Below are positions 9,001-20,134 of a stretch of 20,134 nt of DNA, in pieces. Position numbers and translations under genes: made by a program. This DNA is from a virus. The notes under the pieces are model-generated. The model worked only from the letters and a program-made list of their open reading frames with translations, had not been told where the DNA came from and searched no databases. Position 1 is the stretch's first letter, and each line of letters begins with the position of its first letter. The stretch is from the IMG/VR virus record IMGVR_UViG_3300012936_003594, positions 1 through 20,134 of that record. One strand, written 5' to 3'.

Positions 9001-12000
9001 TTACTATTGGAACTCACTCCTTAACTACTGCAAATAGAATTGCGTTAACAACAGGTGGTATTTCGTTCACCTGCACTAAAGATGGTAATGATCGTATCAC
9101 TGCATATCCTCGTGCAACTGATCCTGCTGCCAATGCAGTTTTAGCAATTACTGCTGTTGTTCCAAACACATCAATCACAGTCAATGTTGGTAAGTCTGGT
9201 GCTCTTGATCAATACGTTCATACATATTCCTCTGCTCTTTCAAATGCAGTCACTGTTCTTGATTATACTACAGCAGATTGTGCTGATGTTTACAATACAG
9301 TTGGCAACCTGATTGATATCCTTACTGATACAATCTCTAATGCTGCTCTTACAAGTCCTGTTGATCACCTCGCATCTGTAACTAAAGTAGAACCTGCTAT
9401 TGAGTTTGCTGGTGGTACAGTCAATGCATATCTTGAAACAGATTTCACTATCGACTATCAAGACACTGTAAATGATCTCATCTATACAAATGCAATCGGT
9501 CCTGATTCACAGTATAGATTCAGAGATGCTGCTGGTTTGATTCGTGCTAATCGTACACCTATTGTTGATAAAGCAGCTGCTGATATGATTACACTTTATC
9601 CTGATCTTGCACAGGATATGCCTCGTAACCAAGGTGGTGGAAGCACAGACGGTACTCTCCGTTGTAAGACTGACCTTGGATTGATTCTTGATGCAATCGC
9701 TAATGATATTGAAGAAGGTGGTAACAAGAATACAGTTACTGCTGGTAACTTCTATGTTGGTGCTTCTGGAGAACTACAGCATGTTCGCTTACAAGCATTC
9801 CAGTCAATCTACGCACATGATCGTCTTGGTTTCTACGCAAAGCAAGCAATCACAGGTGATCTTGATGAAACAAATACTACAGCAATTATCGTTGGTGATT
9901 GGGGTATTACTCAAGATGGTGGTGGATGTGCAAACGTCAAGACTGCTATCGATACACTGATTACAACAATTAATGATATCATCGCACCTACTAGCGAAGA
10001 CTTCAATACTGCTGCTAACAGACTGTATTTCAACAGAGATTATATCGTTCAGGAAATTACTGGACTTACAACTGCAGAGTTTACATATCAACTCAACAAT
10101 GTAAATTACAGTGCTCTTAATACTTCACTTACAGCAGATCTTGAACTCATTATTCTGAGTATCATTTCTGACTTACAAACTGGTGGTAATAGCAGCACAA
10201 TTAAATCGATTGAAACTTATATCAATGCAAATCTTACTCTGAAAGATATCAGTGATATTCTTCTTGCAACTCTTTACTCTATCGAACAAATCAAGACGAT
10301 GGGTGAAAGAGCAGTACAGAATCTGTTGTATGATCAATTTGATGCTGTAACTGGTAATCAGTATGCTGCACAATATGCATCATCTCCTGCTTACAGAGAT
10401 AACATTACTCCTACTGATATCAATCAAGTTATCTACAGAATTAGAGATCTTGTAGATGAAGCAGTATCTATCCTGTCACCTGGCAGAGATGAAGCAAGAA
10501 GTGCAGCGAAGAATCTTCTCTATAATAAGAACTACTATAAGGAAGAAATCAGCACTCTTGCTACAGCACAATTTGGTACTGGTGCATGGACTTATGGAGA
10601 CTTCATTGATGGTCTCGTAGAAGATATCGTTCACGATCTGGTCACTACTGACGTAACTGTAGAAACAACAGCATATACAATCAATGTTGAAAGTGTAACT
10701 GGCAACTTTGTCGTCGGTGAAAATGTTGATTCTAGTAATGGTGGCGAGGCAACTGTTCTTGAATGGGATGAAGAGGATTCTATTCTCTATGTCGGTTCAT
10801 TCAGAGGATCTGCATGGGTAGCAACAAATACTCTTACTGGTGCAGGTGGTGCTACAGCAACTATTTCTACTAGCGGTGTAAGCAGTCCTTATGATTGGCA
10901 CACATCTCCTGCCAACGTTAAGATTCTCACTCGTGCAAGAAATATCACATCTAATATTTCAGGACAAGTTTCTGGAACTAACCTCTTCCCAGATCCAGAA
11001 AACTTCAACGCTGCTGGTTGGACAAATCAGTTTGTCACTAAGACTCTGAACGCTGCTACTGGTCCTGATGGCACATTAACTGCAGATAAACTTGTAGCAA
11101 CTGCCGATAACAATACTCACTTCACTTATAAGAACTTCGCTATTAATTCCTTTGAGACCTTTGATAGTGGATCTACAACATTCGACTCTGGAACAGAAAC
11201 ATTTGACACAGGTTCAGTTGGTATTGATACAACTCAGACCTTTACATTCTCTGTATTCCTTAAGTCTGACGGTACTAATCTTGGTAATGCTGCAAGAGTT
11301 ATGCTGGCACTTGACGATAGTCTTGCTACTAGACAGCAAGCATTCTTCGATGTCAACCTAGACGCTGGTACAAGTGCAAGTGTATTCACACCTCAAGGAG
11401 GTATTACTGTTGATGCATTCGGTGTTGTTCCTTATGGTGATGGTTGGTATAGAGCATACATCACTACCACATTCGCATTTGGTTTCAGTGAAATCCGCAC
11501 GCAGGTCTTTGTTGATGGTGGTGCTCCTTACGCTGGTAACGCAACATCTGGTATCTTTGCATGGGGTGCAAAACTCAATAAGGGTACACTTGATCCTTAC
11601 ACTGCAGGAAGCGGTCAAATCTTCTATGCAGATACTGAATACAACATCAAGAACTTTGCCATCGATCTCTTAGAAGGATTCATGGGTCAGGCACTTGATA
11701 ATACACTCGTAGAACCTTCACCAAATGCAGGATTCTATAAGTTCTATGATTCTACTGCTGCATCTGATTATTCTAAAGTAACAATTCAAAGATCTATTCG
11801 TTATGCACTGAATATCATTCGTCAGCAATTGAATGTTGATAGTTACTACACAACTCTCATCCAAGTCAACGGTATTTCTGTACCTGCTAAGACATTTGGA
11901 ACTAGAGATATTCCAGTTGGAATTGCAGGTGGTCTTAATAATGCCGATTATATCTACGGTTTGTTAAGTAATGAATATGCAGAACTTGAAAATATCAGTC

Positions 12001-13874
12001 TGAATGAAGGTCAGATTGTACAGGTATATCAGAGATTTAGAATTGATGGTGATATCACAGATGGTCCTTATACCATGGGTGAGACAGTAGCAAAACAAGG
12101 TGCTCCTTCTGTTACTGGTGTTGTTTACGGATTCTTTGAAGATGCTAACTACAAGTATCTTGATGTCCGTATTACTGCTGGTCCTTGGGCAATCACTGAC
12201 AACATTGTTGGTGCTCTGAATAGTACAACTGCTCAAATTAGTGCTATTGAAAATCGTATCCATATCATTGACCTGAAGGGCAACTTCGTTAATAACATTC
12301 CATTCAAAGGATATACTAGTGGATACACAGCACTGCCTACAGGATTCCTCAAGACAGAAGCTGCTGTAACAAGTAACTCTGGTGGTACTTTAACCGTTGA
12401 TACTGAGACTCTCTCAGGAACATTTGAGAAGACTTCTGTAATCTATCCAGAATCTTCTAGACAGTTCCTTGATGTTAGTAAGTACGCTGGTCTCGATGTT
12501 CAGGTGGGTCAAAGAATCGCGTCTGAAGGACACATCAGACTTGGTATTTCAATTATCAGTAATCTGAACGTATTCACTGTTGGTAATAGACTTTATAAGG
12601 TTGTCAATGGTAATCAGGATGCAAATACTTACGGTATTATTACTGAAGTTGATCTTGATAACAACTTTGTATACATCTCACAAGTATCTGGAACTATCGG
12701 TAACGGTGACTTAGTTGGTGATTATGGTGTTGCTGCTAACTTCCCTGTTGGATACGCAAGTGTATCTACTAAGGTTGTAACTGCTGGTGCTGCTGCAGCG
12801 TTGGTACAAGACATTCGTCTTGTCGGACTTAACAAGAGATTATATCTCAGTGATATTCGCGGTACATTTGATGTTAAAGATTCTATCAAGAGTATTGATG
12901 GATATCGCGCTGCTGTTGTTGCCAAGGTTGATCTTAAGGGTAGAGTTAAGCGTTCCTTCAGAGGTTTCGATGGAACACAGACTACATTCAAACTTACTAC
13001 AGATAATGGCACACAATACTTGCCTGATCCTGCAGGACATTTGATGATCTTCGTCAACGGTGTTCTTCAACCACCAGGCGCTACCAATGCATTCACAGCA
13101 TTCTCTGATCAGATTCAGTTCACTGAAGCACCTGATCTTGGAGCATCGTTCACTGGATTCTATGTTGGTAAACTGAGACAACTTGATGATATCTCGTTTG
13201 AGTTTGACTCCTTACGTCAATCCTTCAACCTCAAGCGTAATGATGTATTCTACTCACTGACATTGACTGAAGGTGTACAATCTACAGTCATCAGACCTGA
13301 AAATAATATCATCGTTTCTCTCAACGGTGTTCTTCAGGAACCTGGCGTTGGTTTCGAGATTGTTGGTTCTAGAATCATCTTCTCTGAGATTCCTCGTGTC
13401 GGGTCTACATTCGTCGCATTCTCTTATGTTGGTTCTGAAGCAGACGTTGATGCTGCTGAAGTTGTTCCTCCTATCGAACCTGGCGACTTTATTGAGATTC
13501 AAGGTGAAACTACGGATAGACAAGTTGCTCTTATTGAATCTTCTAACTCACTTATTACTTTCGATTATCTTGGTTCTGTCTTCGGACAAGATGGTCAGGC
13601 ATCTGCTCAACTTACCAGCGGATTCATTGACAAAGTACAAGTTACTGGCGGAGGTTCTGGTTACACATCCAGACCTACTGTAAGACTTGACTCTATCTCT
13701 GGATTTGATGGTCAGATTCGCGCACTGGTTGGTGTTGCGGGTGTTGAACTCAGTGCTGCTGGTTCTGGATATAAAAATCCATCAATTGACGTTGAAACCA
13801 GCGTACCTGATGATTGGACTGCCCCTGATCTTTCTTTATATGGTGAAGAGGTAATCGATCCTGAGATCCTATAA
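1..13874 (+). CDS. Giant modular virion structural protein, 5'-partial (4623 residues in window)
   Basis: The frame is open from the first complete codon at nt 3 to the TAA at 13872-13874, with no in-frame stop, so the true start lies to the left of the window. A TTG at nt 45 is not needed as a start, because residues before it (reading AFISKFSNLG) match the propeller-like repeat that follows. Modules in order by nt: propeller-like repeats (3-1020), LamG-like fold (1123-1690), a long beta-rich region, PGSGY modules (3438-4150), a DSYYYQDFSY block (4770-4912), an LNGV module (5112-5355), a second LamG-like fold (6541-7164), helical repeats with YDP/TFTC beta modules in their loops (7275-10656), a CBM-like domain (10974-11618), GExV-type modules (12040-12930), two LNGV modules (12945-13440) and a final PGSGY module (13620-13800). 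There is no catalytic motif and no membrane segment. Mass is about half a megadalton. By content and by location upstream of gp8 it is a tail, baseplate or fibre component, probably contacting the host surface. The structural role is fairly secure; the exact place in the virion is not known. Confidence 0.9.
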   Translation, partial: ASGNEVAFISKFSNLGVKEWEKTLESQVGQEYTEFIRLDVNGDNIWAVGENKPNQPVLAAYNPDVFLAKYVQSIDGLSATLSFQKGYAGISGSTRADHVTAIKRYSDTRYIIGGFTNTNSTAPYDAYIASIDSTGNFSAKRKIATAAKSEKLIDLIVLDDAVYFVLETSDSSSSNDVRLAFGKATIGTSVITIDFIKEINNTLYSFLDVSLVSDEFKECYVTATLRLKSNNTTKDSFWVGKFDTTGDLLWNYRYIAPVGNTIQVAPRTTIDIFGDLNVAYTRVDDTTGYRTVDTVKIGYDGVMKKQTNNSFTANNIEGINVHGVTVDNSGDVYTFGQTSWNRNEFLFPFTAGAITDTTGHYTLTNVTTSGSVTLADNVAKINGYQTGQTSWTNGHLKVTGAQLGTRLNDNWTFEMMVYKDSTTTSVSPTQHTLLSIGDSTVSTGGLWLYYDVSSGKLELVVTDNTTSINSAGSALQSTATTMFANNTWQFVALKKEGDTFTGYVNGIQVFTGTIASTSLGNKDLLIGQISGRDATLGTFRSNEQGQFFAENVRLRNRAITPTVPADVTALPTVGGFGFAYDWTDDAWFTTNTNRYDYIDYVGFGLKTDKNSDAARLGDQGAQTNTGISFTRTDVTAVIGSTLTVTNVNLALGGTGIQTLDFDDATITMQQDTEALTYTSDTWSSRTSTVPSPGSQKLKVSAVIRDRYYMKVTNTVKIDNVQELTINQGFNFTVGAKLRLNNTSGSFINSGYILSVDKTNNKVFLAVNNNEWTNDLNTGLLVTEQFAEQSTYGITGPVPDDTNEIENYSFNLIDNTTPGTFDIDLDKYNVDGTYNAGGGQNLDSFAKFKPFDVNSYAVKIEEVAGGSAYIVGSVVQIASGNISFNAAFSTAQITGLTGVLKITLVSTLDKILQVTAVANTNEVYAITADRHYLTAGENISVDGNPSETVGGVVYDEYDGSFTVDRVVSSKEFVYKLKTVAVTSPATSAGNVNIFVKSPVLKMYYGHQYLFDLSHSSLVGSNLSFSKDNLFKLEYSFNSIERIGTPGVTGQGQPTPTVKLKVDNDVVTNISYYFDPSRTGADSPIAPRSYLDIVDSPYVGTFTITTTTGGTITTGDNIFKFLLANEPEGVATVSRASYSTSSLKAVGPISDIRIVNSGGFYSSLPIVTGIQSSRKIERVDINEPGTEYAVGVYNGVPIGGDGEGGLVSIRVADGTDSEGVSIPGQIQEVVVTSPGKGYTTATIDIEAIDGILGAGLTGSGAELSVVIPPFGTAASVFTKGDKVGKIKKLKNNNFGYDYPHDYTLRPEITFPINAQLTSTSILDSITVTNPGSGYSQAPAVVITGGGGTGAIAEASIRNGRIDQILVKDPGAGYSSEPTVALKSSFNYVVNLDLGLLQFAFPHGIQQGAAVTLNVVDTGDGADFPLAAGALGRLNSTTTYYAIAGSANSLEDDQLKLAITPANAELGDSITFANAGIGRQQLLTTSFGATATANVITSTFLEGELVYQGDSLETATATGYVSTNKGWQVGPRILKIVDYTGDFAANQRVTGVISKSSGIISDLKIAKGVLEIGSITRTTGQFIDDVGKPSEIIQKIQDSYYYQDFSYAVKSSVSIDDWKDILIKNVHPASFKVFGELNLNDYGSIPNKETDFQLTKSVELARESIVPNIQNFSLVEPLYSEFNNTEVLFRQKRLTSSENILTSVVQRVDDISNLFDGERISFPLTVAGNNVVANANQLLIVLNGVAQTPNTSFEIQGDAIVFSEPPQPPASVKYVNVTVNQIDIVDLTFTNQSGIFPLVGNTLVGVSSTARLTVTKVVGDNIQGFITEGTFILGELCTVGATGFSANLNTNNPITNIGLFAFGETVTNLDGDTAKVEQINLERGQETPLADLRYTIGAATTQFEVIDATSVTDAPVPAGTFTIGSNYQFGSEIFTVGNIVDGSESTTLTVTRGQVGTQPVAQQEDAPIYGTQISVTNTLTLSKTAGTYQSTPGLYDIQLNDYIIGASSNVVAQITSTAVYTDPTTNESIGQVNISEGSSFFGLLFNRITSQTYPNIVLDDISKSQVSVVQFDDNATAFNTEFPSNELINNYIIPYDNATGDLQQDEFIRNYRVEYGNTSGDFTVGESGKVRKLTFTDAVGDGFFAAGHVIRTEDTKAEVIGYNQARKTLYLGKIGRTKSNGQDYHAVTFANSAQLDTAQKQFGPSSLLVTGSTNDYISIPSSAEFGWSTGAYTIEMYIRPATAAVSGTATLADFRAAATEVAGRLYLQAGQIRYNVNGSDLVTSGATTVAADNWYHIAVQKSSTTVKIYLNGTEVGTGTDSANYPAKPVRFGADYAGANGFTGHIDEIRLSNTNRYTTVPFTPQAGIFQGDANSKLLLHLDGADAQTYTEDWSGAEGFTKGEDFNNDAILRTTLVNSSTVPAGFIGNSQRYYDAADLIIANKDFVAKEVVFQMRERYPELVILGTRYTPTNATYDAETGLLSMTVAGNSLTSGGQLTPDSVAYDPTTGVLTITKLSHGVTNGQRINIKVGGITFTCAQDSNATNHPYPRSTDPIAGKWLKVANATTDTFTVNVGVSSNTTTHTFVSALANAITIEKDRIKINDNALTFTCAMDGNTSNKTYPRSTDPASKDVALPIISSTSTNLTVNVGPSPLVNFQPSNATYDPATGEFVMTIANHTINVGTHIRLTADSFTFTCTQDGNSANKTYPRATAGDGQPDPAYNTALEVTAVGTSTQNISSASYNPTTGILTVDTSGAHSLSTGDRIQIADESLTFTCAYDSNATNHTYPRQTDPIRGEWVEVTVVDSDTFTIDIGVSSDTSTHAFVSATAGALIKQTGTVTVNVGVSSQADQYAHTFVSAAANAVVTGGNYVHTFVSAVANSVIGDEKVNCEDDIRDTLNAIVQDIRNGSNNHIWDASSYYVDRTQNPVQIAQIEPAVKETLFAYEKVDDMLQYIITNTLWPVEGDHGLTQFTDTTITDSTTNSYTQFTPTGATYDPATGDLVITIGTHSLTTANRIALTTGGISFTCTKDGNDRITAYPRATDPAANAVLAITAVVPNTSITVNVGKSGALDQYVHTYSSALSNAVTVLDYTTADCADVYNTVGNLIDILTDTISNAALTSPVDHLASVTKVEPAIEFAGGTVNAYLETDFTIDYQDTVNDLIYTNAIGPDSQYRFRDAAGLIRANRTPIVDKAAADMITLYPDLAQDMPRNQGGGSTDGTLRCKTDLGLILDAIANDIEEGGNKNTVTAGNFYVGASGELQHVRLQAFQSIYAHDRLGFYAKQAITGDLDETNTTAIIVGDWGITQDGGGCANVKTAIDTLITTINDIIAPTSEDFNTAANRLYFNRDYIVQEITGLTTAEFTYQLNNVNYSALNTSLTADLELIILSIISDLQTGGNSSTIKSIETYINANLTLKDISDILLATLYSIEQIKTMGERAVQNLLYDQFDAVTGNQYAAQYASSPAYRDNITPTDINQVIYRIRDLVDEAVSILSPGRDEARSAAKNLLYNKNYYKEEISTLATAQFGTGAWTYGDFIDGLVEDIVHDLVTTDVTVETTAYTINVESVTGNFVVGENVDSSNGGEATVLEWDEEDSILYVGSFRGSAWVATNTLTGAGGATATISTSGVSSPYDWHTSPANVKILTRARNITSNISGQVSGTNLFPDPENFNAAGWTNQFVTKTLNAATGPDGTLTADKLVATADNNTHFTYKNFAINSFETFDSGSTTFDSGTETFDTGSVGIDTTQTFTFSVFLKSDGTNLGNAARVMLALDDSLATRQQAFFDVNLDAGTSASVFTPQGGITVDAFGVVPYGDGWYRAYITTTFAFGFSEIRTQVFVDGGAPYAGNATSGIFAWGAKLNKGTLDPYTAGSGQIFYADTEYNIKNFAIDLLEGFMGQALDNTLVEPSPNAGFYKFYDSTAASDYSKVTIQRSIRYALNIIRQQLNVDSYYTTLIQVNGISVPAKTFGTRDIPVGIAGGLNNADYIYGLLSNEYAELENISLNEGQIVQVYQRFRIDGDITDGPYTMGETVAKQGAPSVTGVVYGFFEDANYKYLDVRITAGPWAITDNIVGALNSTTAQISAIENRIHIIDLKGNFVNNIPFKGYTSGYTALPTGFLKTEAAVTSNSGGTLTVDTETLSGTFEKTSVIYPESSRQFLDVSKYAGLDVQVGQRIASEGHIRLGISIISNLNVFTVGNRLYKVVNGNQDANTYGIITEVDLDNNFVYISQVSGTIGNGDLVGDYGVAANFPVGYASVSTKVVTAGAAAALVQDIRLVGLNKRLYLSDIRGTFDVKDSIKSIDGYRAAVVAKVDLKGRVKRSFRGFDGTQTTFKLTTDNGTQYLPDPAGHLMIFVNGVLQPPGATNAFTAFSDQIQFTEAPDLGASFTGFYVGKLRQLDDISFEFDSLRQSFNLKRNDVFYSLTLTEGVQSTVIRPENNIIVSLNGVLQEPGVGFEIVGSRIIFSEIPRVGSTFVAFSYVGSEADVDAAEVVPPIEPGDFIEIQGETTDRQVALIESSNSLITFDYLGSVFGQDGQASAQLTSGFIDKVQVTGGGSGYTSRPTVRLDSISGFDGQIRALVGVAGVELSAAGSGYKNPSIDVETSVPDDWTAPDLSLYGEEVIDPEIL
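3..1020 (+). repeat. Propeller-like repeats at the visible N-terminal end of the giant protein
   Basis: Several copies of a strand pattern of the type xFxxKFDxxGxxxW recur about every 50-70 residues: AFISKFSNLGVKEW at the left edge, VFLAKYVQSIDG, AYIASIDSTGNF, FWVGKFDTTGDLLWNY and VKIGYDGVMK. Intervening stretches such as YIIGGFTN and DVYTFGQT fit the GxxxG/T turns of SBBP-like beta-propeller blades. The copies are weakly conserved. Because the first copy is cut by the window edge, more blades probably lie upstream. The assignment to a propeller is inference from pattern only. Confidence 0.5.
1123..1690 (+). other. LamG/concanavalin A-like lectin domain 1 of the giant protein
   Basis: The segment has the usual order of a LamG/laminin-like jelly roll: an early strand with W and G residues, NDNWTFEMMVYKD (the WTxEmwv strand), a loop and LWLYYDVSSGKLEL, then NNTWQFVALKKEGDTFTGYV with the W-x-hydrophobic-A-hydrophobic pattern, then YVNGIQVFTGTI (the xNGxxv hairpin) and a closing strand FFAENVRLRNRAI. 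Such domains bind sugars or proteins; in tail proteins they commonly serve adsorption. The fold is well supported by the strand order; the ligand is unknown. Confidence 0.75.
3438..4150 (+). repeat. PGSGY beta modules in the giant protein (several copies)
   Basis: The pattern is I-x-x-I-x-V-x-x-P/G-G-x-G-Y-x-x-x-P-x-V followed by a glycine-rich run. Copies visible here: RIVNSGGFYSSLPIV, VDINEPGTEYAVGV, VVVTSPGKGYTTATI, ITVTNPGSGYSQAPAVVITG with GGGGTGAIAEA after it, and ILVKDPGAGYSSEPTVAL. The same module occurs in the C-terminus of this protein, three times or more in the 1388-residue protein and once in gp8. This looks like a small beta-hairpin or prism-like repeat used as a structural spacer; no function is assigned. 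Confidence 0.8.
4770..4912 (+). other. DSYYYQDFSY / HPASFKVFGE conserved block
   Basis: The block reads IQDSYYYQDFSYAVKSSVS, then SIDDWKDILIKNVHPASFK and VFGELNL. This resembles a motif I associate with large structural proteins of marine T4-like phages (YYQxxSYxIKS...W...VK...HPxGFxxFGE). It is aromatic-rich, appears once in the window, and divides the beta-rich N-terminal half from the LNGV module that follows. Its role is unknown. The link to marine T4-like phages is from memory rather than a search. Confidence 0.6.
5112..5355 (+). repeat. LNGV module, copy 1
   Basis: The module starts with VDDISNLFDGERISFPLTV, continues with QLLIVLNGVAQTPNTSFEI and closes with DAIVFSEPPQPPASV. This gives the pattern FDGxxxxFxL...LxIxLNGVxQxPxxxFxIxGxxIxFSExPxxGxxF. 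Two further copies lie in tandem near the C-terminus of the same protein. It is a compact all-beta unit; function not assigned. Confidence 0.75.
5680..5910 (+). repeat. TTxxVxDATxxPxxGxFxIGxE..LTVTRGQxGT module
   Basis: The segment AATTQFEVIDATSV, PAGTFTIGSNYQFGSEIFTV and TLTVTRGQVGTQPV matches, in order of elements, a segment of the 1388-residue protein at nt 17955-18130 (DTTIYVDSTDAYPGSGSFI, ETISYTS, FSGLTRGV). The shared order is a TTxxV strand, an Asp-Ala/Ser-Thr turn, a Pro-rich loop, a GxFxI strand, an E-I/T-x-T strand and a L-T-x-R-G signature. A shared small beta domain in two neighbouring virion proteins is the simplest reading. Confidence 0.6.
6541..7164 (+). other. LamG/concanavalin A-like lectin domain 2 of the giant protein
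   Basis: This is the clearer of the two LamG folds. It has QKQFGPSSLLVTGSTNDYIS (the FGxSSLxF..GxDY/xI strand typical of LamG_3), then FGWSTGAYTIEMYIRPA (the FTxExWir strand), a variable loop, DNWYHIAVQKSSTTVKIYLN (the xWHHxAxxRxGxxxxxYvN pattern), then GFTGHIDEIRLSNTNRYT and TTVPFTP (the GxIDEiRiSnxxRYxxxFxP signature). It closes with LLLHLDGAD, the repeat of the outer strand. Marine phage tail proteins commonly carry this domain for surface binding. Confidence 0.9.
7395..7481 (+). repeat. YDP/TFTC beta module, N-terminal fragment (copy 0)
   Basis: Only the first hairpin is present: TPTNATYDAETGLLSMTVAG followed by NSLTSGGQL. It corresponds to the opening SxATYDPxTGxLxxTxxxHxLxxG part of the full module and stops where the TFTC strand should begin. 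The complete copy 1 follows at once. Confidence 0.7.
7482..7775 (+). repeat. YDP/TFTC beta module, copy 1 (complete)
   Basis: All elements are present: SVAYDPTTGVLTITKLSHG, then GGITFTCAQDSNATNHPYPR, STDPIAGKWLKV, DTFTVNVGVSSNTTTHTF and VSALANAI. It is about 98 residues, the reference against which I scored the other copies. The module has one cysteine in the TFTC strand. Function unknown; similar modules are familiar from marine T4-like phage structural proteins. Confidence 0.85.
7776..7961 (+). repeat. YDP/TFTC beta module, copy 2 (lacks the YDP hairpin)
   Basis: The copy begins directly at DRIKINDNALTFTCAMDGNT, continues with SNKTYPRSTDPAS and ends with NLTVNVGPSPLVNF. The opening YDPxTG hairpin is missing and the terminal HTFVSA strand is replaced by SPLVNF, so this is the middle portion only. 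Confidence 0.8.
7962..8201 (+). repeat. YDP/TFTC beta module, copy 3
   Basis: Elements: SNATYDPATGEFVMTIANHT, DSFTFTCTQDGNSANKTYPR, then ATAGDGQPDPAYNTALEVTA with a short insertion before the DP. The final TVNVGxSS and HTFVSA strands are absent and copy 4 starts immediately. Confidence 0.8.
8202..8639 (+). repeat. YDP/TFTC beta module, copy 4, with extra C-terminal halves
   Basis: A full copy runs from SSASYNPTTGILTVDTSGAH through ESLTFTCAYDSNATNHTYPR and DTFTIDIGVSSDTSTHAFVS. It is then followed by a second terminal half, TVTVNVGVSSQADQYAHTFV with SAAANAV, and a third shorter one, YVHTFVSAVANSV. The last strand pair has therefore been amplified within this copy. Confidence 0.8.
8955..9257 (+). 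repeat. YDP/TFTC beta module, copy 5 (separate insertion site)
   Basis: Elements: PTGATYDPATGDLVITIGTH, GGISFTCTKDGNDRITAYPR, ATDPAANAVLAITAV, SITVNVGKSGALDQYVHTYS and SALSNAV. It is complete and lies between helical parts B and B' of unit 1, apart from the copy 0-4 array by about 310 nt of helical sequence. Confidence 0.85.
9510..10000 (+). repeat. Helical repeat unit 2 (uninterrupted)
   Basis: Part A is FRDAAGLIRANRTPIVDKAA to TLYPDL; part B is LRCKTDLGLILDAIANDIEE with GGNKNTVTAGNFYV; part B' is GGCANVKTAIDTLITTINDI. These align element by element with unit 1 once its beta modules are removed (DAAxLIxANxxxV, YPxL, CxxDxxxxLxAIxxDIxxG, CxxVxxxxxxLIxxLxxxI). This is the best reference for the repeat. 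Confidence 0.8.
10005..10490 (+). repeat. Helical repeat unit 3
   Basis: Part A is NTAANRLYFNRDYIVQEITG; part B is LTADLELIILSIISDLQTGG followed by NSSTIKSIETYINA; part B' is TDINQVIYRIRDLVDEAVSI. The cysteine that opens parts B and B' in units 1 and 2 is absent here. Spacing from unit 2 is about 495 nt. Confidence 0.75.
10491..10656 (+). repeat. Helical repeat unit 4 (truncated or interrupted)
   Basis: Part A is ARSAAKNLLYNKNYYKEEIS to TAQF; part B starts as YGDFIDGLVEDIVHDLVTTD and then gives way to beta modules and the CBM-like domain. A helical stretch at nt 11636-11850 (YNIKNFAIDLLEGFMGQAL, then VTIQRSIRYALNIIRQQLN) may be the remainder of this unit, which would make the CBM-like domain another loop insertion. 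Confidence 0.6.
10974..11618 (+). other. CBM-like (CBM_4_9-type) carbohydrate-binding domain with a heptad insert
   Basis: The order of elements is that of a domain common in phage tail proteins: NLFPDPENFNAAGWT, then NAATGPDGTLTADKLVA, TFTFSVFLKSDGT, RVMLALDD, ITVDAFGVVPYGDGWYRAYI, and GIFAWGAKLNKGTLDPYTAG at the end. WYRAYITTT and the FAWGAKL...PYT ending are the most specific pieces. Between the early strand and SVFLKS lies an extra three-copy heptad (nt 11160-11222). The domain probably binds glycans, by family knowledge. Confidence 0.75.
11160..11222 (+). repeat. Three 21-nt heptad repeats FDSGSTT / FDSGTET / FDTGSVG
   Basis: The frame reads FDSGSTT, FDSGTET and FDTGSVG in direct succession, preceded by FET. 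The three 21-nt units differ at synonymous positions (gatagtgga, gactctgga, gacacaggt), so this is a protein-level repeat and not a recent slippage product. It sits inside the CBM-like domain, probably in a surface loop. Confidence 0.75.
12040..12930 (+). repeat. GExV-type beta modules (three successive copies)
   Basis: The pattern is F/Y-x-x-G-E/N-x-V...G-x-V...L-x-hydrophobic...G-x-F. Copies: YTMGETVAKQGAPSVTGVVY with YLDVRITAG; FTVGNRLYKVVNGNQ with YGIITEVDLDNNFVYISQV; LYLSDIRGTFDVKDSIKS with YRAAVVAKVDLKG. Similar units are at about nt 4610-4740, 5370-5530, 6350-6500 and 10690-10870 in this protein, and at 15960-16090, 18175-18290 and 18770-18900 in the 1388-residue protein. Conservation is low, so individual borders are uncertain. 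Confidence 0.55.
12945..13440 (+). repeat. LNGV modules, copies 2 and 3 in tandem
   Basis: Copy 2 (about 12945-13170): FRGFDGTQTTFKLTTDNG, HLMIFVNGVLQPPGAT, DQIQFTEAPDLGASF. Copy 3 (about 13171-13440): FEFDSLRQSFNLKRN, NIIVSLNGVLQEPGVGFEIV, SRIIFSEIPRVGSTF. Both follow the pattern of copy 1 at 5112-5355. Copy 3 is joined through VDAAEVVPPIEPGDFIEI to the terminal PGSGY module. Confidence 0.8.
13620..13800 (+). repeat. PGSGY module at the C-terminus of the giant protein
   Basis: VQVTGGGSGYTSRPTVRLDS is followed by a second, shorter turn VELSAAGSGYKNPSIDVET, after which the protein ends within 25 residues with an acidic tail (EEVIDPEIL). The close match to copies in the next proteins suggests shared module ancestry. 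Confidence 0.8.
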
Positions 13875-13897: not shown

Positions 13898-15124
13898 ATG
13901 GCTAAACAAACACTCGGTCTTGGCACCTCCGCTAATGATAACACAGGTGATACTTTACGAATCGGCGGTGACAAGATCAATGATAACTTTAATGAGCTAT
14001 ATGCAGCGTTAGGTAACGGTACTAACTTAACTGTTAACGTTACCAACCCTGCTGTAGGGCAAGTCTTAAGGTATAACGGAACGACGTTCTTACCTTCGGA
14101 CTATACGAACCTTACTGCTAACTTAGATGTTAACGGAAATAATATCGTTTCTTCTGCCAATGGAAATATTGCCATTACTCCAAACGGCACTGGAAATACA
14201 ACTATTTCTAACGGCAGTATCGTTAACACATTTAACGGCACTACTGGTGTAGTTGATTTTCCTACAAAAATTCAGTATAAGAATGAATATTCTGCTCTTG
14301 GTAACGCACCAGCAGCAGCAACTTATACTGGTTATTTCTTCACTGTTGACGGTGATGATAATCCTTATGTAAACATCAATATCACCGCTGGTGGTGTTGG
14401 TGACACTAGAGCAAAACTTCTCACAGAGTATTCTAGTATTGATGCACTTTCTGATGTAGACACTACAACTGCAGCACCTACAGCAAACCAAATTTTAAAA
14501 TGGAACGGTACTAATTGGGCACCTGCTGATGATGGTGGCGGTGGTGGTGGAACAACACAGAACTTGTTTGAAACTGTCAGTGCTGATACTGGAAGTACAA
14601 CTGCTAATGCTGCAAATGATGCATTAACAGTTTCTGGCGGCACAGATATTACGACATCGATCACTGGAGATGTCCTTACAATCAATTATTCTGGTACACC
14701 CGTTACAACCTTTGCTGCTTTAACTGATACCGATGTTACTGGTATCACACAAGGTGATTCAATATTCTGGAATGGTCTTGATTGGGCAAGAATTCCCAGT
14801 CCAATCATTTGGTGGGAAATAAATGCTAACGGAGCATCTGATTATACTTTTGATGGTCCTGGTTTTACAGGAGCAGCAAATGATCCTACTCTGTATGTTT
14901 ACAGAGGATTTACTTATGCCTTTGATAATTCTATTCAAGGTGGAGCACACCCCTTCAGAATTCAAAGCACTCAAGGTTTGAGCGGAACCGCCTATACTAC
15001 GGGTCAATCTGGTAGTGGAACTGCTGTTCTCTACTGGACTGTTCCCATGGACGCTCCTAATACACTGTACTATCAGTGTACAATCCATGCAGCAATGAAT
15101 GGAACCATTAACGTTGTAAGTTAA
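13898..15124 (+). CDS. Fibre-like virion protein with C-terminal cupredoxin-like domain
   Basis: The protein has 408 residues. The N-terminus (LGLGTSANDNTGDTLRIGG, then KINDNFNELYAAL) is the classic phage tail fibre N-terminal motif. It is followed by LxDV/WNG repeats: VGQVLRYNGTTFLPSD, LSDVDTTTAAPTANQILKWN, and LTDTDVTGITQGDSIFWNG. A six-glycine linker follows WAPADD. Residues 303-408 form a cupredoxin-like domain: LYVYRGFTYAFDN, His351 in AHPFRI, then VLYWTVPMDAP and Cys394-x2-His397-x2-Met400 in YYQCTIHAAMNG. The spacing of the last three residues is that of amicyanin, and with His351 it makes a complete type 1 copper ligand set. No signal peptide is visible. The start is preceded by only a weak GAG at 13893-13895 as ribosome site. 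Probably a tail or baseplate appendage; metal binding is inference. Confidence 0.9.
   Translation: MAKQTLGLGTSANDNTGDTLRIGGDKINDNFNELYAALGNGTNLTVNVTNPAVGQVLRYNGTTFLPSDYTNLTANLDVNGNNIVSSANGNIAITPNGTGNTTISNGSIVNTFNGTTGVVDFPTKIQYKNEYSALGNAPAAATYTGYFFTVDGDDNPYVNINITAGGVGDTRAKLLTEYSSIDALSDVDTTTAAPTANQILKWNGTNWAPADDGGGGGGTTQNLFETVSADTGSTTANAANDALTVSGGTDITTSITGDVLTINYSGTPVTTFAALTDTDVTGITQGDSIFWNGLDWARIPSPIIWWEINANGASDYTFDGPGFTGAANDPTLYVYRGFTYAFDNSIQGGAHPFRIQSTQGLSGTAYTTGQSGSGTAVLYWTVPMDAPNTLYYQCTIHAAMNGTINVVS
14804..15121 (+). other. Cupredoxin-like domain with complete type 1 copper ligand set (fibre-like protein)
   Basis: The visible ligand candidates are His351 (AHPFRI), Cys394, His397 and Met400 (CTIHAAM). 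Cys-x2-His-x2-Met is the amicyanin loop spacing; plastocyanin and pseudoazurin have Cys-x2-His-x4-Met. The preceding strand VLYWTVPMDAPNTLYYQC fits the beta strand leading into the Cys of cupredoxins, and NGTINVV the last strand. The domain ends the protein, so it is probably exposed at the tip. Confidence 0.7.
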
Positions 15125-15129
15125 TATAA

Positions 15130-18100
15130 ATGGCAAGAAATGTTCCTGGATCTGGCGCTGTCATCGAACCCATCTTTGATGAGGTTTTCGGTGTTCGTGC
15201 TGTACGAGTAAAAGACGGTGGTACTGGATATGATCCTGCTGATCCACCTAGATTAACTGTTGATGGTTGTGGTACACCTGATCAGGCAGCATTACTGTAT
15301 CCAATTATTGATGCTGATTCAGGAAAAATTATTCACGTTAGAGTTCTGGAAAGAGGACGTGGATATGACCCATTAAGACTTCAAATTGTTCCAGAACAAG
15401 AAACTCCTAATGTTCTGACATCATTTGATATTAACAGAATTTGGCAATCGCATCCTAACTCTCCAACTAGCGGTTCGTTTGCTACAACAACAGACAGATT
15501 AACAATTCAATCGGACAATCATCCTAAACCAACTCCTCAGTTGACTGAGAGAGCACCTGGTGGTGGTCCTCTTGTAGATAGAACTTTCAATCAAACCTTT
15601 ATCTATCGTGGTGGTAAGGATGTTCCTAATCCTGGTGTAAGAGCAGATCAATTAGATAGAGTAACTGGTATATTAGCAAATGGTGGACTTCTCCACACTC
15701 CTGATTGGGGTGCAGATGGTGGAGCACCTGCAGGTTTTGCTATTGATGCAATCAAATATAATTACGTCAAAAATAATTCTGTTTATGATACTATTACTGA
15801 AGGTAATGTACAGTATTATCATAATAGTAAATTAATTAACGAGTTTAAACTCGACAATGGTGTATTTGATTGGGGTGATCAGAGATCATATACTTGGAAT
15901 GTAAAAGTAGAATATGGCAACATTGTGTTGTCTGTTACTAATGTTGATGAGAATCTCGGTTCAGTAGAAGTTGGTAGAATTGTAGATGAAATTGGTGGTA
16001 TTGCAAAGGGTGAGATCGCAAAGATCTCTAGAGATGGTCAAGGAAATATTGTTAGAATCTACTTAAGAAATGTATCTACAGGAGCATCATTCTCCGATGG
16101 TGACCGTTGTTTAGGATCTAACGGATTTAGTTTTACTATCAATGCAGATCCAGTTAGTCGAAATGTATATTATATTGATTTTGGACCAGATGCTTCTAGG
16201 TTCGGTCCCTTTGTGCCTGGCGAATATTACTTCGCACCAGAGAATATTCAAGTAAGGGCAGATGATTTAATCATCTTTAATCAGGTTGATTCTTCTAATC
16301 AACAAGGTATAGGACATCCAATCAGATTTAGTACAACTCAAGATGGTACATTAAATGGTGGAACTTTATATTATGACAGTACAGGTTTAAGTTCGGCACC
16401 TGCCGCTGATTATGAAAATGAGTATCAACCATTATTCACAATGAATGGTGATGAATCTGCAAGGATTTATTATCATTGTGCTCATCACAGATATATGTCT
16501 GGAGAATCTGGAGATGAAGGTTATATCATTTTAAACACAACTTCAGAAACATATAATCCTACCAACAATTATTATTCTAGAGATTTTTATCAGGTTGGTG
16601 CAGACATTGATAAGTCTAGGCATGTAGATGGTCACTCTAAAGTTTTAGGTATGTCCTTTGATGGATATCCCATCTACGGTCCTTGGGGATACAATTCTAG
16701 TGGTGCTGTAGCGAGAGAGGTTTCTTCATATCGACTGAGAACTGCAACAGAACTGCAGGGTTCTAGGGTTTCAATTGGTGTTACTACAGCAGGCACAGTT
16801 ACATACGCTGTAACACTATCAAATAATCAATATCAATTTGATGGATCTCGTCCAGCTTTCTTGAATTTAGATAGAGGTAAAACTTATATCTTCCAATGTA
16901 ATGATTCTAGTATGGATGCTGATACATTCTTACTATCTACTACAGAAAACTCTTGGCATTCCACTGGAGATAGTGCAAACATTGGTGACACATCATATGT
17001 TTATGGTTTAGGAGTTGAATATTATATTGATGGAGCATCTGTTACATACACACAATATCTTTCACAGTTTTCTGCTGCTACTACAAGAGAACTTAGATTA
17101 ACTGTTCGTGTTGATGCACCTAGATTGTTATATGCATTCTCATATGCAAACTCTGATAGAGGAATTAGAAGTGTTCAAGATGGATACGTTTTGGGGGATT
17201 TGATTTCTGATTATATCTACGATGCTTCTGTTGGAACTCTCGATGCATACAATGGTAAGTTTGCTGTAACTCCTGAATATCCGAACGGCACATATGCCTA
17301 CTTCATGACTGAAGATGGTAACGGTGATCCTGTTTATCCATATGCTATTGGTCCTAGATTTTATAGTGTTCCATTATTTGAAGGAGACACTGTACCAGCA
17401 ATTGTTGATGTTTTCCCTTCTGGTGCAGCTGGTGAAGTTGTATTGAATACTAACGGTAGTGTCTCTTATATTAAGATGACACAAAAAGGTGATAGTTATT
17501 TTGGTCCTGCAAAAGCAAAAATTCTTGGTGGTGAAGGAACTGGTGCCTTAGGAACTCCTACAGTTCAGACTGTTACTGGTCTATCTCTTCTTAATGCTGG
17601 TAGACAATATGCAACACCCCCTACACTTATTTTTGAAGGTGGTGGAGCAGGTCAAGGTGCTCAAGGTGCCGCAGAAGTTGATACTACAGGTAAAGTTACT
17701 GCTATCAATATTGTTGATCCAGGTGAATTCTATCAGGAACCTCCATTTGTATTGATTACAGGTGGCGGTGGTCTTGGTGCGAAAGCAAAAGCAACTATAT
17801 CTCAGGGTGAGATTACTGGTATTGAAATTACAGATCCTGGTAAAGGGTACACAACAGCACCCAATATTATCTTTACTAAACTTGTCAATCTCAAGAGAAA
17901 AACAAGAGCACGTCAGGCATTCAATGCAAGCAATATCTATCTAACTGGTCTTACTAAGGATGTTGGTGCATCTGATACAACGATCTATGTTGATTCTACT
18001 GATGCCTATCCTGGTTCTGGTTCGTTTATTCTGAATACAGAAACTATTTCATATACTTCTAAATCAGCGGGTAAGTTTTCTGGTCTGACTAGAGGTGTTA

Positions 18101-19296
18101 ATTTTAATTATGACCAGAGAGTTATCCTTGATGCTGGTCAGAATGATTCTAATGGATTATCAACATACAAATTTAGTGTTGGTGACCGAGTAATTAGAAG
18201 AGTTGAGAATCAAAACAATAAAATTGCTAAGGTTTATGATTGGAATCCTTCAACTAGAGAACTCTTAGTTGTATTTGAAGTTGATGAATTAGCATTTATT
18301 GACGGTGGTATTCCTTCTACTGAGGATGCTATTGTTCAGTTTGATGCTGGTGTTGCAACCAGCGCACCTGGTGGATTTGCACCACACGTTGTTTTAGTTT
18401 CTCAGGGTGATAATATTAATCTTTTGACAACTCCTCTTTCAATCTTAGCAGATAGAAAGTTTGAAGATAATGATGAAAACGAAGATCCAAACAATCCTGG
18501 TACATTCTTAGGAGATGGTATTGCTGACTTGGTAAATACAGGAACTGATTTTGAAAATCAGATTAGTCTTGATGGTGGTATTTACAATTCTCTTTATGGT
18601 ATTGAAGAAACTCAAGGTGGTCAAAACACAACCTTGTTCCAAGTTGGTGACAATATTAAAGATGCAAGTATTCCGTTCAAATTTGCGACAATTTCATCTG
18701 CTGGAGGACTCAGCGAAGGAGTTGAGCATAATGCTATCCTAAATATCTACTTGGATGCAAATGATGCAAACGGTCAGAATTACAGTGTAAATGAAGTCGT
18801 TACAGGTGCAATTTCTGGAGTACAGGGTACGGTAGTATCTTGGGATCCTGTGAACGTTGTTTTACAAGTTCAAGATGTTATTCCTTTCAATACTGGTAAT
18901 ATTAATGTTGGTATTGGAGGTTTATTATATGAGTTCTCTCAAGACGGAACTATCGTAGACTTCTTTATTCAAAATCCTGGCACAAACTACACCGCAACTC
19001 CAACAGTTGCTGTAGAAAACATCGGAGATATTCAAGCAACAGGAACTGTTAATATGACGACTGCTGGTGACCAAGTTGCTTCTATCACTATCACAAATGG
19101 TGGTTATGGTATTCAACAATCTGTTGATGGTACATATAACCTTCACCCAACAATTACATTCACTAATGCTGGTGGTGATACAACAGGAGCAAACGCAGCA
19201 GCATACGCTATTTTAGGTGGAGAAAAGATTAATGGAAATGGCGGTGCGTCTTACAGAATCAAGCGAATTGAATATGCGACAACAGTTCGTTCGTAA
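15130..19296 (+). CDS. Large virion protein with cupredoxin-like and YHYH-family domains
   Basis: The protein has 1388 residues and starts 5 nt after the preceding stop, with no clear Shine-Dalgarno sequence, so translation is probably coupled. N-terminal residues (VPGSGAVIEPIFDEVFGVRA) lead into PGSGY-type units (VRVKDGGTGYDPADPP, VRVLERGRGYDPL). A cupredoxin-like domain follows at about residues 345-472 with His396, Cys450, His453 and Met456. Then comes a YHYH-family domain in two halves (residues about 495-540 and 687-750), separated by a second cupredoxin-like domain without ligands (Phe670, Ala673, Asp676 in their place). The C-terminal 600 residues hold PGSGY modules, a LTRG-type module (nt 17955-18130) and GExV-type units. 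It lies directly upstream of gp8, where T4 has gp7; I see no sequence sign that it is a gp7 homologue. A tail/baseplate structural role is likely. Confidence 0.9.
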   Translation: MARNVPGSGAVIEPIFDEVFGVRAVRVKDGGTGYDPADPPRLTVDGCGTPDQAALLYPIIDADSGKIIHVRVLERGRGYDPLRLQIVPEQETPNVLTSFDINRIWQSHPNSPTSGSFATTTDRLTIQSDNHPKPTPQLTERAPGGGPLVDRTFNQTFIYRGGKDVPNPGVRADQLDRVTGILANGGLLHTPDWGADGGAPAGFAIDAIKYNYVKNNSVYDTITEGNVQYYHNSKLINEFKLDNGVFDWGDQRSYTWNVKVEYGNIVLSVTNVDENLGSVEVGRIVDEIGGIAKGEIAKISRDGQGNIVRIYLRNVSTGASFSDGDRCLGSNGFSFTINADPVSRNVYYIDFGPDASRFGPFVPGEYYFAPENIQVRADDLIIFNQVDSSNQQGIGHPIRFSTTQDGTLNGGTLYYDSTGLSSAPAADYENEYQPLFTMNGDESARIYYHCAHHRYMSGESGDEGYIILNTTSETYNPTNNYYSRDFYQVGADIDKSRHVDGHSKVLGMSFDGYPIYGPWGYNSSGAVAREVSSYRLRTATELQGSRVSIGVTTAGTVTYAVTLSNNQYQFDGSRPAFLNLDRGKTYIFQCNDSSMDADTFLLSTTENSWHSTGDSANIGDTSYVYGLGVEYYIDGASVTYTQYLSQFSAATTRELRLTVRVDAPRLLYAFSYANSDRGIRSVQDGYVLGDLISDYIYDASVGTLDAYNGKFAVTPEYPNGTYAYFMTEDGNGDPVYPYAIGPRFYSVPLFEGDTVPAIVDVFPSGAAGEVVLNTNGSVSYIKMTQKGDSYFGPAKAKILGGEGTGALGTPTVQTVTGLSLLNAGRQYATPPTLIFEGGGAGQGAQGAAEVDTTGKVTAINIVDPGEFYQEPPFVLITGGGGLGAKAKATISQGEITGIEITDPGKGYTTAPNIIFTKLVNLKRKTRARQAFNASNIYLTGLTKDVGASDTTIYVDSTDAYPGSGSFILNTETISYTSKSAGKFSGLTRGVNFNYDQRVILDAGQNDSNGLSTYKFSVGDRVIRRVENQNNKIAKVYDWNPSTRELLVVFEVDELAFIDGGIPSTEDAIVQFDAGVATSAPGGFAPHVVLVSQGDNINLLTTPLSILADRKFEDNDENEDPNNPGTFLGDGIADLVNTGTDFENQISLDGGIYNSLYGIEETQGGQNTTLFQVGDNIKDASIPFKFATISSAGGLSEGVEHNAILNIYLDANDANGQNYSVNEVVTGAISGVQGTVVSWDPVNVVLQVQDVIPFNTGNINVGIGGLLYEFSQDGTIVDFFIQNPGTNYTATPTVAVENIGDIQATGTVNMTTAGDQVASITITNGGYGIQQSVDGTYNLHPTITFTNAGGDTTGANAAAYAILGGEKINGNGGASYRIKRIEYATTVRS
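15190..15400 (+). repeat. PGSGY-type modules at the N-terminus of the 1388-residue protein
   Basis: Two copies are visible: VRAVRVKDGGTGYDPADPPR with LTVDGCGTPDQAAL, and IIHVRVLERGRGYDPLRLQI. Here the YTSxP turn of the usual module reads YDPxxPP or YDPL. An unusual cysteine is present in DGCGTP. Confidence 0.7.
16162..16545 (+). other. Cupredoxin-like domain 1 of the 1388-residue protein, ligands present
   Basis: Elements: ENIQVRADDLIIFNQVDSS, His396 in GIGHPIRFST, and YYHCAHHRYMSGE with Cys450, His453 and Met456. Cys-x2-His-x2-Met is the same spacing as in the fibre-like protein just upstream. HPIRF and HPFRI are also clearly related. The two domains are therefore paralogous, and both could hold a type 1 copper centre. 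Confidence 0.65.
16612..16746 (+). other. YHYH-family domain, N-terminal half
   Basis: DGHSKVLGMSFDGYPIYGPW (residues 500-519) is the hallmark of YHYH-family proteins: HSxxxGxxxDGxPIYGPxGY, followed by an SSYRL segment, here VSSYRLRTA. His498 and His502 are possible metal or structural ligands. The biochemical role of this family is not established to my knowledge. Confidence 0.8.
16789..17187 (+). other. Cupredoxin-like domain 2, ligands lost, inserted in the YHYH domain
   Basis: YQFDGSRPAFLNLDRGKTYI is the opening strand pair of the cupredoxin-like fold seen elsewhere in this window (compare LYVYRGFTYAFDN). LRLTVRVDAPRLLYAFSYAN matches VLYWTVPMDAPNTLYYQCTI strand for strand. The positions of Cys, His and Met are taken by Phe670, Ala673 and Asp676, so no type 1 copper site is possible. 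Its position between the two YHYH halves marks it as an insertion. Confidence 0.65.
17188..17380 (+). other. YHYH-family domain, C-terminal half
   Basis: The segment has DYIYDASVGTLDAYNGKFAV, TPEYPNGTYAYFMTEDGNG and VYPYAIGPRFYS, which fits the LDxxNGxxxxTPEYPxGTYxYxxT...YPYxIG ending of YHYH proteins. The four residues aligned with the family's name-giving Tyr-His-Tyr-His are Tyr722-Ala723-Tyr724-Phe725. Confidence 0.7.
17460..17880 (+). repeat. PGSGY modules in the middle of the 1388-residue protein
   Basis: Copies: VSYIKMTQKGDSYFGPAKAK, LSLLNAGRQYATPPTLIFEG followed by a GGGAGQGAQGAA run, INIVDPGEFYQEPPFVLITG with GGGLGAKAKA, and IEITDPGKGYTTAPNIIFTK. The last two are very close to the copies at nt 3960-4150 of the giant protein, including the glycine run and the following GxIxxIxI strand. 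Confidence 0.85.
17955..18130 (+). repeat. DSTDAxPGxGxF..LTRG module
   Basis: DTTIYVDSTDAYPGSGSFIL, ETISYTSKSAGKFSGLTRGV and FNYDQRVILD form a compact beta unit, related in order and signature to nt 5680-5910 of the giant protein. I know this unit from memory as frequent in T4-like marine phage structural proteins. Confidence 0.65.
18945..19220 (+). repeat. PGSGY modules at the C-terminus of the 1388-residue protein
   Basis: FFIQNPGTNYTATPTVAVEN and ITITNGGYGIQQSVDGTYNL with HPTITFTNAGGDTTGANAAA are divergent copies. The protein ends within 30 residues after the last one with a basic tail (YRIKRIEYATTVRS). Confidence 0.7.
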
Positions 19297-19334: not shown

Positions 19335-20134
19335 ATGGCAGCTCTACTTACTGATCAATTTAGGATTTTTTCAGCGAAAAAATTCATTAAGGCACTTGAA
19401 GGTCCTGACGCAAGTCAGAGCGATTCAGCGGCAGGTGCTAATAGAGATAGACTTTATCTGTTTATCGGAAGACCGCAAACGTGGGATAATGAAAACTCGC
19501 CTCCTCAGGCAGTTGATTCCTTCGGTGAGTTCTCTGACTCGTATGACGACATGATCTCTCTCAAGAGAGTTCTTGCTGCTGATACGGTTCAAGTTGTGAG
19601 ACGAATCGATTGGGTTTCTCCTGAAGAAACTACTGGTGGATTAGGATTCACCTATGACATGTATCGTCATGACTATTCTCCCTCCAAAACTGCTGCTTCT
19701 GGTGCTACAAAATTATATGATTCCGACTTTTATGTTGTGAATTCACAATATCAAGTTTACAAGTGCATTTATAATGGAACATCCCCGTCTGACCCCAATG
19801 GTAAACCTTCTACAGTTGAGCCTACTGGTACTTCCACTAGCATTATTACCACTGGTGATGGATACCGTTGGAAGTACATGTACACCATCCCTGTCGCTTC
19901 CGTCCTCAAGTTTTTCTCCAACGATTACATGCCCGTCTTCACAAACGACGCGGTAAAAACAAATGCAGTCGCTGGTGAGATTGATACTGTTGTAATTAAC
20001 TCAGCAGGTTATGGTTATAATAACGGCACATACGATAACGTTGCTATCAATGGCGACGGTACTGGTGGTCGTGTTTCCATCGTTGTTGATGGTGGTAAGA
20101 TTATTTCTGCTACTGTTACTTCTGGTGGTACTGG
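19335..20134 (+). CDS. 8: Baseplate wedge protein gp8, 3'-partial (266 residues in window)
   Basis: The ATG at 19335 opens a frame that continues past the right edge. It matches T4 gp8 in order: a short N-terminal helix (TDQFRIFSAKKFIKAL), LYLFIGRPQTWDN at residues 40-52 (T4: IFITFGRSEPWSS), VVRRIDWVSP (T4: VIPRRDWGD), FYVVNSQYQVYKCIYNG (T4: IVVCNSAPYN with VYRCLD), and DGYRWKYMYTIP at 175-186 (T4: DGYVWEYLFEIP). In T4, gp8 is a homodimer joining the wedge arms of the baseplate. After NDYMPVF, where T4 continues with its own wedge sequence, this protein has a PGSGY module (IDTVVINSAGYGYNNGTYDN, then GDGTGGRVSIVVDGGKIISA). This suggests a longer protein than the 334 residues of T4 gp8. Identity is secure; the C-terminus is not visible. 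Confidence 0.92.
   Translation, partial: MAALLTDQFRIFSAKKFIKALEGPDASQSDSAAGANRDRLYLFIGRPQTWDNENSPPQAVDSFGEFSDSYDDMISLKRVLAADTVQVVRRIDWVSPEETTGGLGFTYDMYRHDYSPSKTAASGATKLYDSDFYVVNSQYQVYKCIYNGTSPSDPNGKPSTVEPTGTSTSIITTGDGYRWKYMYTIPVASVLKFFSNDYMPVFTNDAVKTNAVAGEIDTVVINSAGYGYNNGTYDNVAINGDGTGGRVSIVVDGGKIISATVTSGGT
19980..20134 (+). repeat. PGSGY module inserted in gp8 (cut by window edge)
   Basis: The elements are a IDTVVINSAGYGY strand and turn, VAINGDGTGGRVSIVVDGGK, and IISATVTSGGTG at the edge, the last being the beginning of a second copy. T4 gp8 has nothing like this. The copy is typical of those in the two upstream giant proteins. Confidence 0.8.

Follow-up and report, generated by a model that had tools for sequence, protein, structure and literature searches.

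Genes and domains at the locus

The stretch of DNA that we analysed, hereafter the window, is the 20,134-base IMG/VR record IMGVR_UViG_3300012936_003594, whose four main genes all lie on the + strand. Judged from these gene sequences, the window is the baseplate module of a T4-like cyanomyophage, comprising gp9, a phrog_708 wedge protein with a YHYH domain, and gp8. Its features are given below with their supporting evidence in parentheses.

3-13874, + strand: giant virion protein, 3' part (phrog_701, phrog_18802)
13898-15124, + strand: gp9-like baseplate wedge/tail-fibre connector, 408 aa (phrog_677, E 7.7e-197, full length; PF07880, E 9e-9)
14804-15121, + strand: predicted C-terminal cupredoxin domain of gp9, residues 303-408 (AF2 pLDDT 95, pTM 0.87; VIA Z 10.3 to 6tfd)
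14948-14950, + strand: codon of His351, putative first ligand of gp9 (invariant in three family alignments; CAT/CAC 70/58)
15077-15097, + strand: putative ligand loop of gp9, Cys394-x2-His397-x2-Met400 (alignments; TGT/TGC 78/50, CAT/CAC 95/33)
15130-19296, + strand: phrog_708 baseplate wedge protein with YHYH domain, 1388 aa (phrog_708, E 0; PF14240, E 1e-15)
16162-16545, + strand: cupredoxin-like copy A, phrog_708 residues 345-472 (His, Cys, His and Met in 130/137 distinct proteins; AF2 pLDDT about 89)
16315-16317, + strand: codon of His396, putative first ligand of copy A (His in 131/131 proteins having copy A)
16477-16497, + strand: putative ligand loop of copy A, Cys450-x2-His453-x2-Met456 (Cys and His in 131/131; Met in 130/131)
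16555-16773, + strand: YHYH domain, first part, residues about 476-548, boundaries approximate (PF14240; contains the motif HVDGHSK...DGYPIYGP)
16786-17175, + strand: cupredoxin-like copy B, residues about 553-682, ligands lost, within the YHYH domain (partial family-profile matches; fold Z 8.1-8.2)
17176-17319, + strand: YHYH domain, second part, residues 683-730 (PF14240 profile positions 138-184 of 193)
19335-20134, + strand: gp8-like baseplate wedge protein, cut by the window end (phrog_438, E 1e-126; PF09215, E 1e-11)

The window gp9 belongs to phrog_677 (T4-like gp9), and it shares with T4 gp9 the gp9/10 N-terminal domain PF07880 and a baseplate role. In contrast, the C-terminal domain of T4 gp9 has no detectable sequence similarity to the window protein. 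A tblastn search with gp9 matched 328 phage records, nearly all of them marine cyanophages. In the 1388-residue protein the YHYH domain scored 58.6 bits against a curated cut-off of 25, matching in two stretches, and its residue H502 was invariant across 137 phrog_708 proteins. The YHYH domain has been predicted to be a Zn-dependent tail hydrolase (PMC7824862, which does not mention cupredoxin or copper). The present protein resembles other YHYH tail proteins in having PF14240, but differs in that copy A lies next to the domain and copy B splits it.

The giant virion protein contains a lectin-like Concanavalin A/laminin-G domain at residues 2209-2350 (window about 6627-7052; PF13385, E 4e-22), and is thus consistent with a host-facing role. 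Residues about 2530-3100 of the same protein (window about 7590-9310) hold at least five repeats of a motif that combines Cys with His/Lys (pattern FTC-x-(D)-x-N...(H/K)xYPR(S/A)TDP). The few Cys residues of the protein fall mostly in or near these repeats, which are possibly another small repeated tail domain.

Ligand motifs in gp9 and the phrog_708 protein

A first-pass annotation of this DNA had claimed that the two adjacent virion proteins each carry a cupredoxin-like domain with a complete set of type 1 copper ligands at the amicyanin spacing. Translation placed the residues in question at H351, C394, H397 and M400 of gp9 (loop C394-T-I-H397-A-A-M400) and at H396, C450, H453 and M456 of the phrog_708 protein (loop C450-A-H-H453-R-Y-M456), such that both domains have the amicyanin-type Cys-x2-His-x2-Met loop. 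The accompanying motifs HPFRI/HPIRF and LYYQC/IYYHC were likewise as quoted, and the interval 14804-16545 covers exactly both domains. Each of the two proteins contains the loop pattern a single time, and the other main proteins of the window lack it; its expected number from composition is no more than 0.0002 in either protein.

Two other readings of the Cys residue were ruled out. A disulfide or a random Cys was rejected in view of C394 being the sole Cys of the window gp9 and of a single Cys being found in 125/137 gp9 proteins having the motif; a heme site was rejected in the absence of CxxCH and with the fold being that of a cupredoxin. Direct comparison of the gp9 domain with copy A gave a weak BLASTP match (E about 1e-3). 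Aligning the two family alignments with hhalign returned a probability of only 24% (E 8e-4), a weak score such as very shallow alignments would be expected to give.

Predicted fold and putative ligand positions

We modelled gp9 residues 303-408 with AF2 from a 52-sequence family alignment, as the first-pass annotation had proposed. The model was confident (pLDDT 95, pTM 0.87) and contained nine strands. Foldseek found its best PDB matches in rusticyanin, three-domain copper nitrite reductase, AcoP, amicyanin-loop pseudoazurin, amicyanin and plastocyanin. In VIA-align the domain matched the N-terminal domain of Hyphomicrobium nitrite reductase (6tfd) with Z 10.3 (2.0 A over 89 residues) and rusticyanin with Z 9.5. 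As modelled, the gp9 domain therefore has the cupredoxin superfamily fold, a Greek-key beta-sandwich with about eight strands. The first His lies immediately ahead of strand 51-54 (model numbering), the Cys at the end of strand 87-92, and the second His and the Met in the turn preceding strand 99-105. On this topology and these fold matches, and without side-chain distances, the four positions of the gp9 model follow the layout of a type 1 copper site.

Copy A was modelled only as part of a 421-residue construct (phrog_708 residues 340-760), which had an overall pLDDT of 70 and values of about 89-90 over two domains. That copy A is a cupredoxin-like domain is supported by this model, subject to the low overall confidence of the construct.

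Profile searches of the PDB agreed with the models at a lower level of significance. Profiles of the gp9 domain and of the wider family gave weak matches to nitrite reductase, laccase, plastocyanin, pseudoazurin and amicyanin (E 0.01 to about 1), and the matches of the wider family profile were mostly copper proteins. In these alignments the His, Cys, His and Met were in register with the ligands of nitrite reductase and plastocyanin, which bears out the claim of a complete ligand set in terms of known copper sites. A single-sequence search of the PDB returned just T4 gp9/gp10 N-terminal matches and chance antibody matches. The copy A profile by itself matched no copper proteins in the PDB; copy A is therefore assigned on the strength of the family alignment and the model.

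Comparison with known copper protein families

The HMM search against cupredoxin families that had been proposed as a check gave a divided answer: the weak PDB matches pointed mostly to copper proteins, but no Pfam copper family passed its cut-off for the domain when 52 family members were scanned. PF00127 (plastocyanin/azurin) did not reach its curated cut-off, and only 1 of the 52 members attained even E 0.11. The nearest Pfam model was the plant At5g54830-like domain, found in 18/52 members (best E 1e-4), with the window's own match below the cut-off. NCBIfam held nothing relevant.

Cupredoxins usually have an Asn following the first ligand His. In more than 90% of the phage copies this residue is Pro rather than the amicyanin-type Asn, so the second sphere of the site differs from that of classical cupredoxins. 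His-Pro occurs at the type 1 sites of multicopper oxidases, of which the phage domain is in this respect reminiscent. The domain also resembles copper nitrite reductase, in that the N-terminal cupredoxin domain of the Hyphomicrobium enzyme was its best structural match; unlike nitrite reductase and the multicopper oxidases, it has no visible type 2/3 copper motifs and no partner domain. With amicyanin, plastocyanin, pseudoazurin and rusticyanin it shares the fold and the ligand order His...Cys-His-Met, and with amicyanin also the Cys-x2-His-x2-Met loop. Those small cupredoxins, amicyanin included, are free periplasmic electron carriers, whereas the phage domain is built as a module into a large virion protein, has Pro after the first His and is too weakly similar in sequence to reach the Pfam cut-offs. 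A cupredoxin encoded by a cyanophage is already known in plastocyanin, the petE auxiliary metabolic gene (PMC2984593), but that protein is a host-derived soluble electron carrier and not a structural module.

The unusual His-Pro second sphere, unlike that of electron-transfer cupredoxins, would suit a site filled by another metal (Zn, Cu(I) only, or a structural mix) that merely stabilises the fold, and assembly in the cytoplasm would, by inference, favour loading with Zn. We give this possibility little credence, given that Met, a poor Zn ligand, is retained in nearly all copies and that the ligand set and loop lengths fit copper proteins.

Conservation of the four residues

Our first scans of viral sequences used patterns that included the Cys/His loop and could have selected for the motif; conservation was therefore re-measured without reference to the loop, on loci anchored on the downstream gp8 gene and, separately, with a profile limited to the first part of the domain. 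The metagenomic loci remain biased towards close relatives of the window. Among the gp8-anchored loci, all four residues were present in 54/55 full-length gp9 proteins and 52/55 full-length phrog_708 proteins. The exceptions were L325 (a replaced domain), L267 (truncated at a contig end), L280 (a nested insertion) and L295 (the site in the other copy). In the phrog_708 protein of L280 (3373-7960), one cupredoxin domain is nested in a loop of copy A and separates the first His from the Cys-His-Met.

The ligands were retained in 136 of 137 distinct gp9 proteins: 134 had Cys-x2-His-x2-Met, two (L321 and L323) had a lengthened Cys-x4-His-x2-Met loop with all four ligands still in place, and one (L325) had a different C-terminal domain. 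All four residues were invariant across 52 family copies; in 17 very divergent copies the His, Cys and second His were invariant and the Met was present in more than 90%. The ligand codons in 128 distinct sequences (first His CAT/CAC 70/58, Cys TGT/TGC 78/50, second His CAT/CAC 95/33) interchanged freely between synonyms. The residues therefore do not vary freely, and the earlier suggestion that they are under selection held on loci picked without regard to the motif.

The 1388-residue protein contains a second cupredoxin-like copy, which the first-pass annotation had overlooked. Copy B (residues about 553-682) separates the two halves of the YHYH match, its first part matches the same family profile, and its fold gave Z 8.2 to a factor VIII domain and 8.1 to auracyanin A. 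In the window and most relatives copy B has lost all ligands, with A, S or G at the Cys position and mostly T, N or S at that of the second His. A DGWH-type motif at W609-H610 (window 16954-16959, where the sequence reads NSWH) is near-invariant in copy B, with H610 in 132/137 proteins; the ligand-free copy may have some other conserved function.

Comparison of the two copies across 137 distinct phrog_708 proteins was informative. In 130 the His, Cys, His and Met were in copy A, and none of these had a site in copy B; one further protein (L058) had a copy A with the His, Cys and His but no Met. The remaining six had no copy A, and the same six retained Cys-x2-His in copy B, with Met in five and a Lys at the Met position in L295. 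Every one of the 137 proteins thus had exactly one Cys-x2-His site; none had both and none had neither. Because the six form one clade, the site-swap to copy B is one evolutionary event, not six.

These data bear on whether a metal is needed at all, since the four residues could be kept for packing or assembly. Direct metal evidence is absent, and some fully conserved neighbours of the ligands (G, Y, P) are clearly structural, as this explanation would have it. However, copy B retains the fold while all four of its positions drift, the Cys is usually the only one of gp9, and the loop changes length while the ligands remain; we consider a metal-free role improbable. Copy B drifted after it lost the ligands, while copy A of these proteins kept them unchanged, which indicates that the fold does not need these residues. 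As far as sequence comparison can tell, selection acts on the metal site itself.

Family relationships and distribution

The domain is widespread in marine phages. It was found in the proximal tail fibre of P-SSM2, in tail fibres of Pelagibacter and Methylophilales phages and in several Prochlorococcus and Synechococcus phage proteins, and P-HM2 has two intact copies within one virion-region protein. The proteins that carry it are host-facing in context (tail fibre, proximal tail fibre, lectin and YHYH proteins).

A family tree placed the gp9 domains with other phage copies (99/99), apart from copy A and copy B, each of which formed its own group, and domains of other phage proteins were interspersed on each side of the 99/99 branch between the gp9 domain and copy A. 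The resolution of the tree was limited (114 columns, many open forks). A private duplication between gp9 and phrog_708 was not supported. On this tree, the gp9 domain and copy A most likely represent separate recruitments from a large marine-phage family and not a local duplication; the shared origin first proposed for them thus stands at the level of the family, but not as close paralogy.

In L325 (2955-4148) an unrelated domain replaces the C-terminal cupredoxin of gp9, which suggests that the gp9 C-terminus is an exchangeable module. Three small 'beta-sandwich proteins' of metagenomic Pithovirus/Marseillevirus in BFVD (A0A481Z6J5, A0A481YWX9, A0A481Z7Q7) matched the gp9 model with query TM about 0.70-0.76, which raises the possibility that giant viruses have the module too. 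A narrow scan of cellular genome contigs found one locus and no cellular source; this locus (L158, NZVD01000020.1) is filed under a planctomycete (Rhodopirellula) MAG, carries cyanophage-type gp9 and phrog_708 genes, and is probably a mis-binned phage contig.

The presence of the domain in host-facing tail fibres raised the idea of nutrient mimicry, in which a copper-loaded tail would bind a host copper-uptake receptor in the manner of the Ferrojan Horse for iron. Metal-bearing virions have already been discussed for iron, but no such copper receptor is known and the phages that bear the domain have diverse hosts; we regard this as very unlikely.

Discussion

The analysis established the predicted fold, ligands in register with those of known copper proteins, strong selection on them and their location in baseplate proteins. 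Our best explanation, to which we assign a probability of about two in three, is that true cupredoxin domains form both the gp9 C-terminus and copy A, that each retains a complete mononuclear copper site of type 1-like character, and that they serve as a host-facing, copper-bearing adhesion or docking module. Given that almost every relative retains the four ligands, copper is probably present in the virus tail, copper binding itself being inferred. That the metal in the site is copper, for which there is no direct evidence, we infer with good confidence; its presence in the mature virion, also an inference, seems to us somewhat favoured, and whether it has a structural or adhesive role, as we infer, or instead takes part in electron transfer is an even call.

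Under this explanation, the domains would be host-facing modules shuffled among the tail fibres and baseplates of marine phages. The apo-domain would fold first in the cytoplasm, and each copy would take up one copper ion once the virion met copper in the lysate, seawater or host periplasm. The bound metal could then rigidify the loop between the last two strands and create an exposed His-bearing patch, which may act as a docking surface, either attaching the fibre to the baseplate or, next to the YHYH domain, attaching the baseplate to the host envelope.

A redox role deserves consideration. Type 1 sites are built for one-electron chemistry, and oxidation or reduction of the copper at the host surface, or light-driven chemistry, might switch the state of the baseplate or fibres and so gate adsorption or trigger the tail. 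Adsorption of P-HM2 is absent in the dark, while the podovirus P-SSP7 adsorbs in the dark (PMC7112961), and P-HM2 is the phage with two intact domain copies. However, the window has no redox partner, pelagiphages and Methylophilales phages, which infect hosts other than oxygenic phototrophs, also have the domain, and the link to light is based on two phages, with the domain status of P-SSP7 not established. Redox-active copper is therefore unlikely, though it cannot be dismissed. The broader proposal, that marine tailed phages bear redox-active blue-copper sites on host-facing baseplates and fibres, with the redox state of the copper gating adsorption or triggering, could underlie the light-dependent adsorption of some cyanomyophages, but we offer it as a long shot. 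The lack of an evident redox partner, and the occurrence of the domain in phages that infect organisms other than oxygenic phototrophs, lead us to prefer a structural or docking role for the copper to electron transfer.

Several points weigh against a copper-bearing docking module. Proof of copper is lacking, the second sphere has Pro, no Pfam copper family matches and the fold of copy A comes only from a low-confidence construct. Copper is also scarce in the bacterial cytoplasm and in seawater. Within the openly licensed literature, we found no report of phage virions that have a cupredoxin domain or contain type 1 copper, and we know of no description of copper in a virus particle.

If copper is bound, T4-like cyanomyophages would have copper sites at several places in each baseplate, as would many other marine phages. 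Tail proteins would thereby gain a cofactor chemistry not previously described, and there would be a concrete handle on adsorption and on the interaction of the tail with seawater metals. The domain would also serve as a marker with which to annotate many 'hypothetical' proteins of marine viruses. Lastly, since the site is lost in one copy yet present in the other, whether a phrog_708 protein needs exactly one site can be tested directly.
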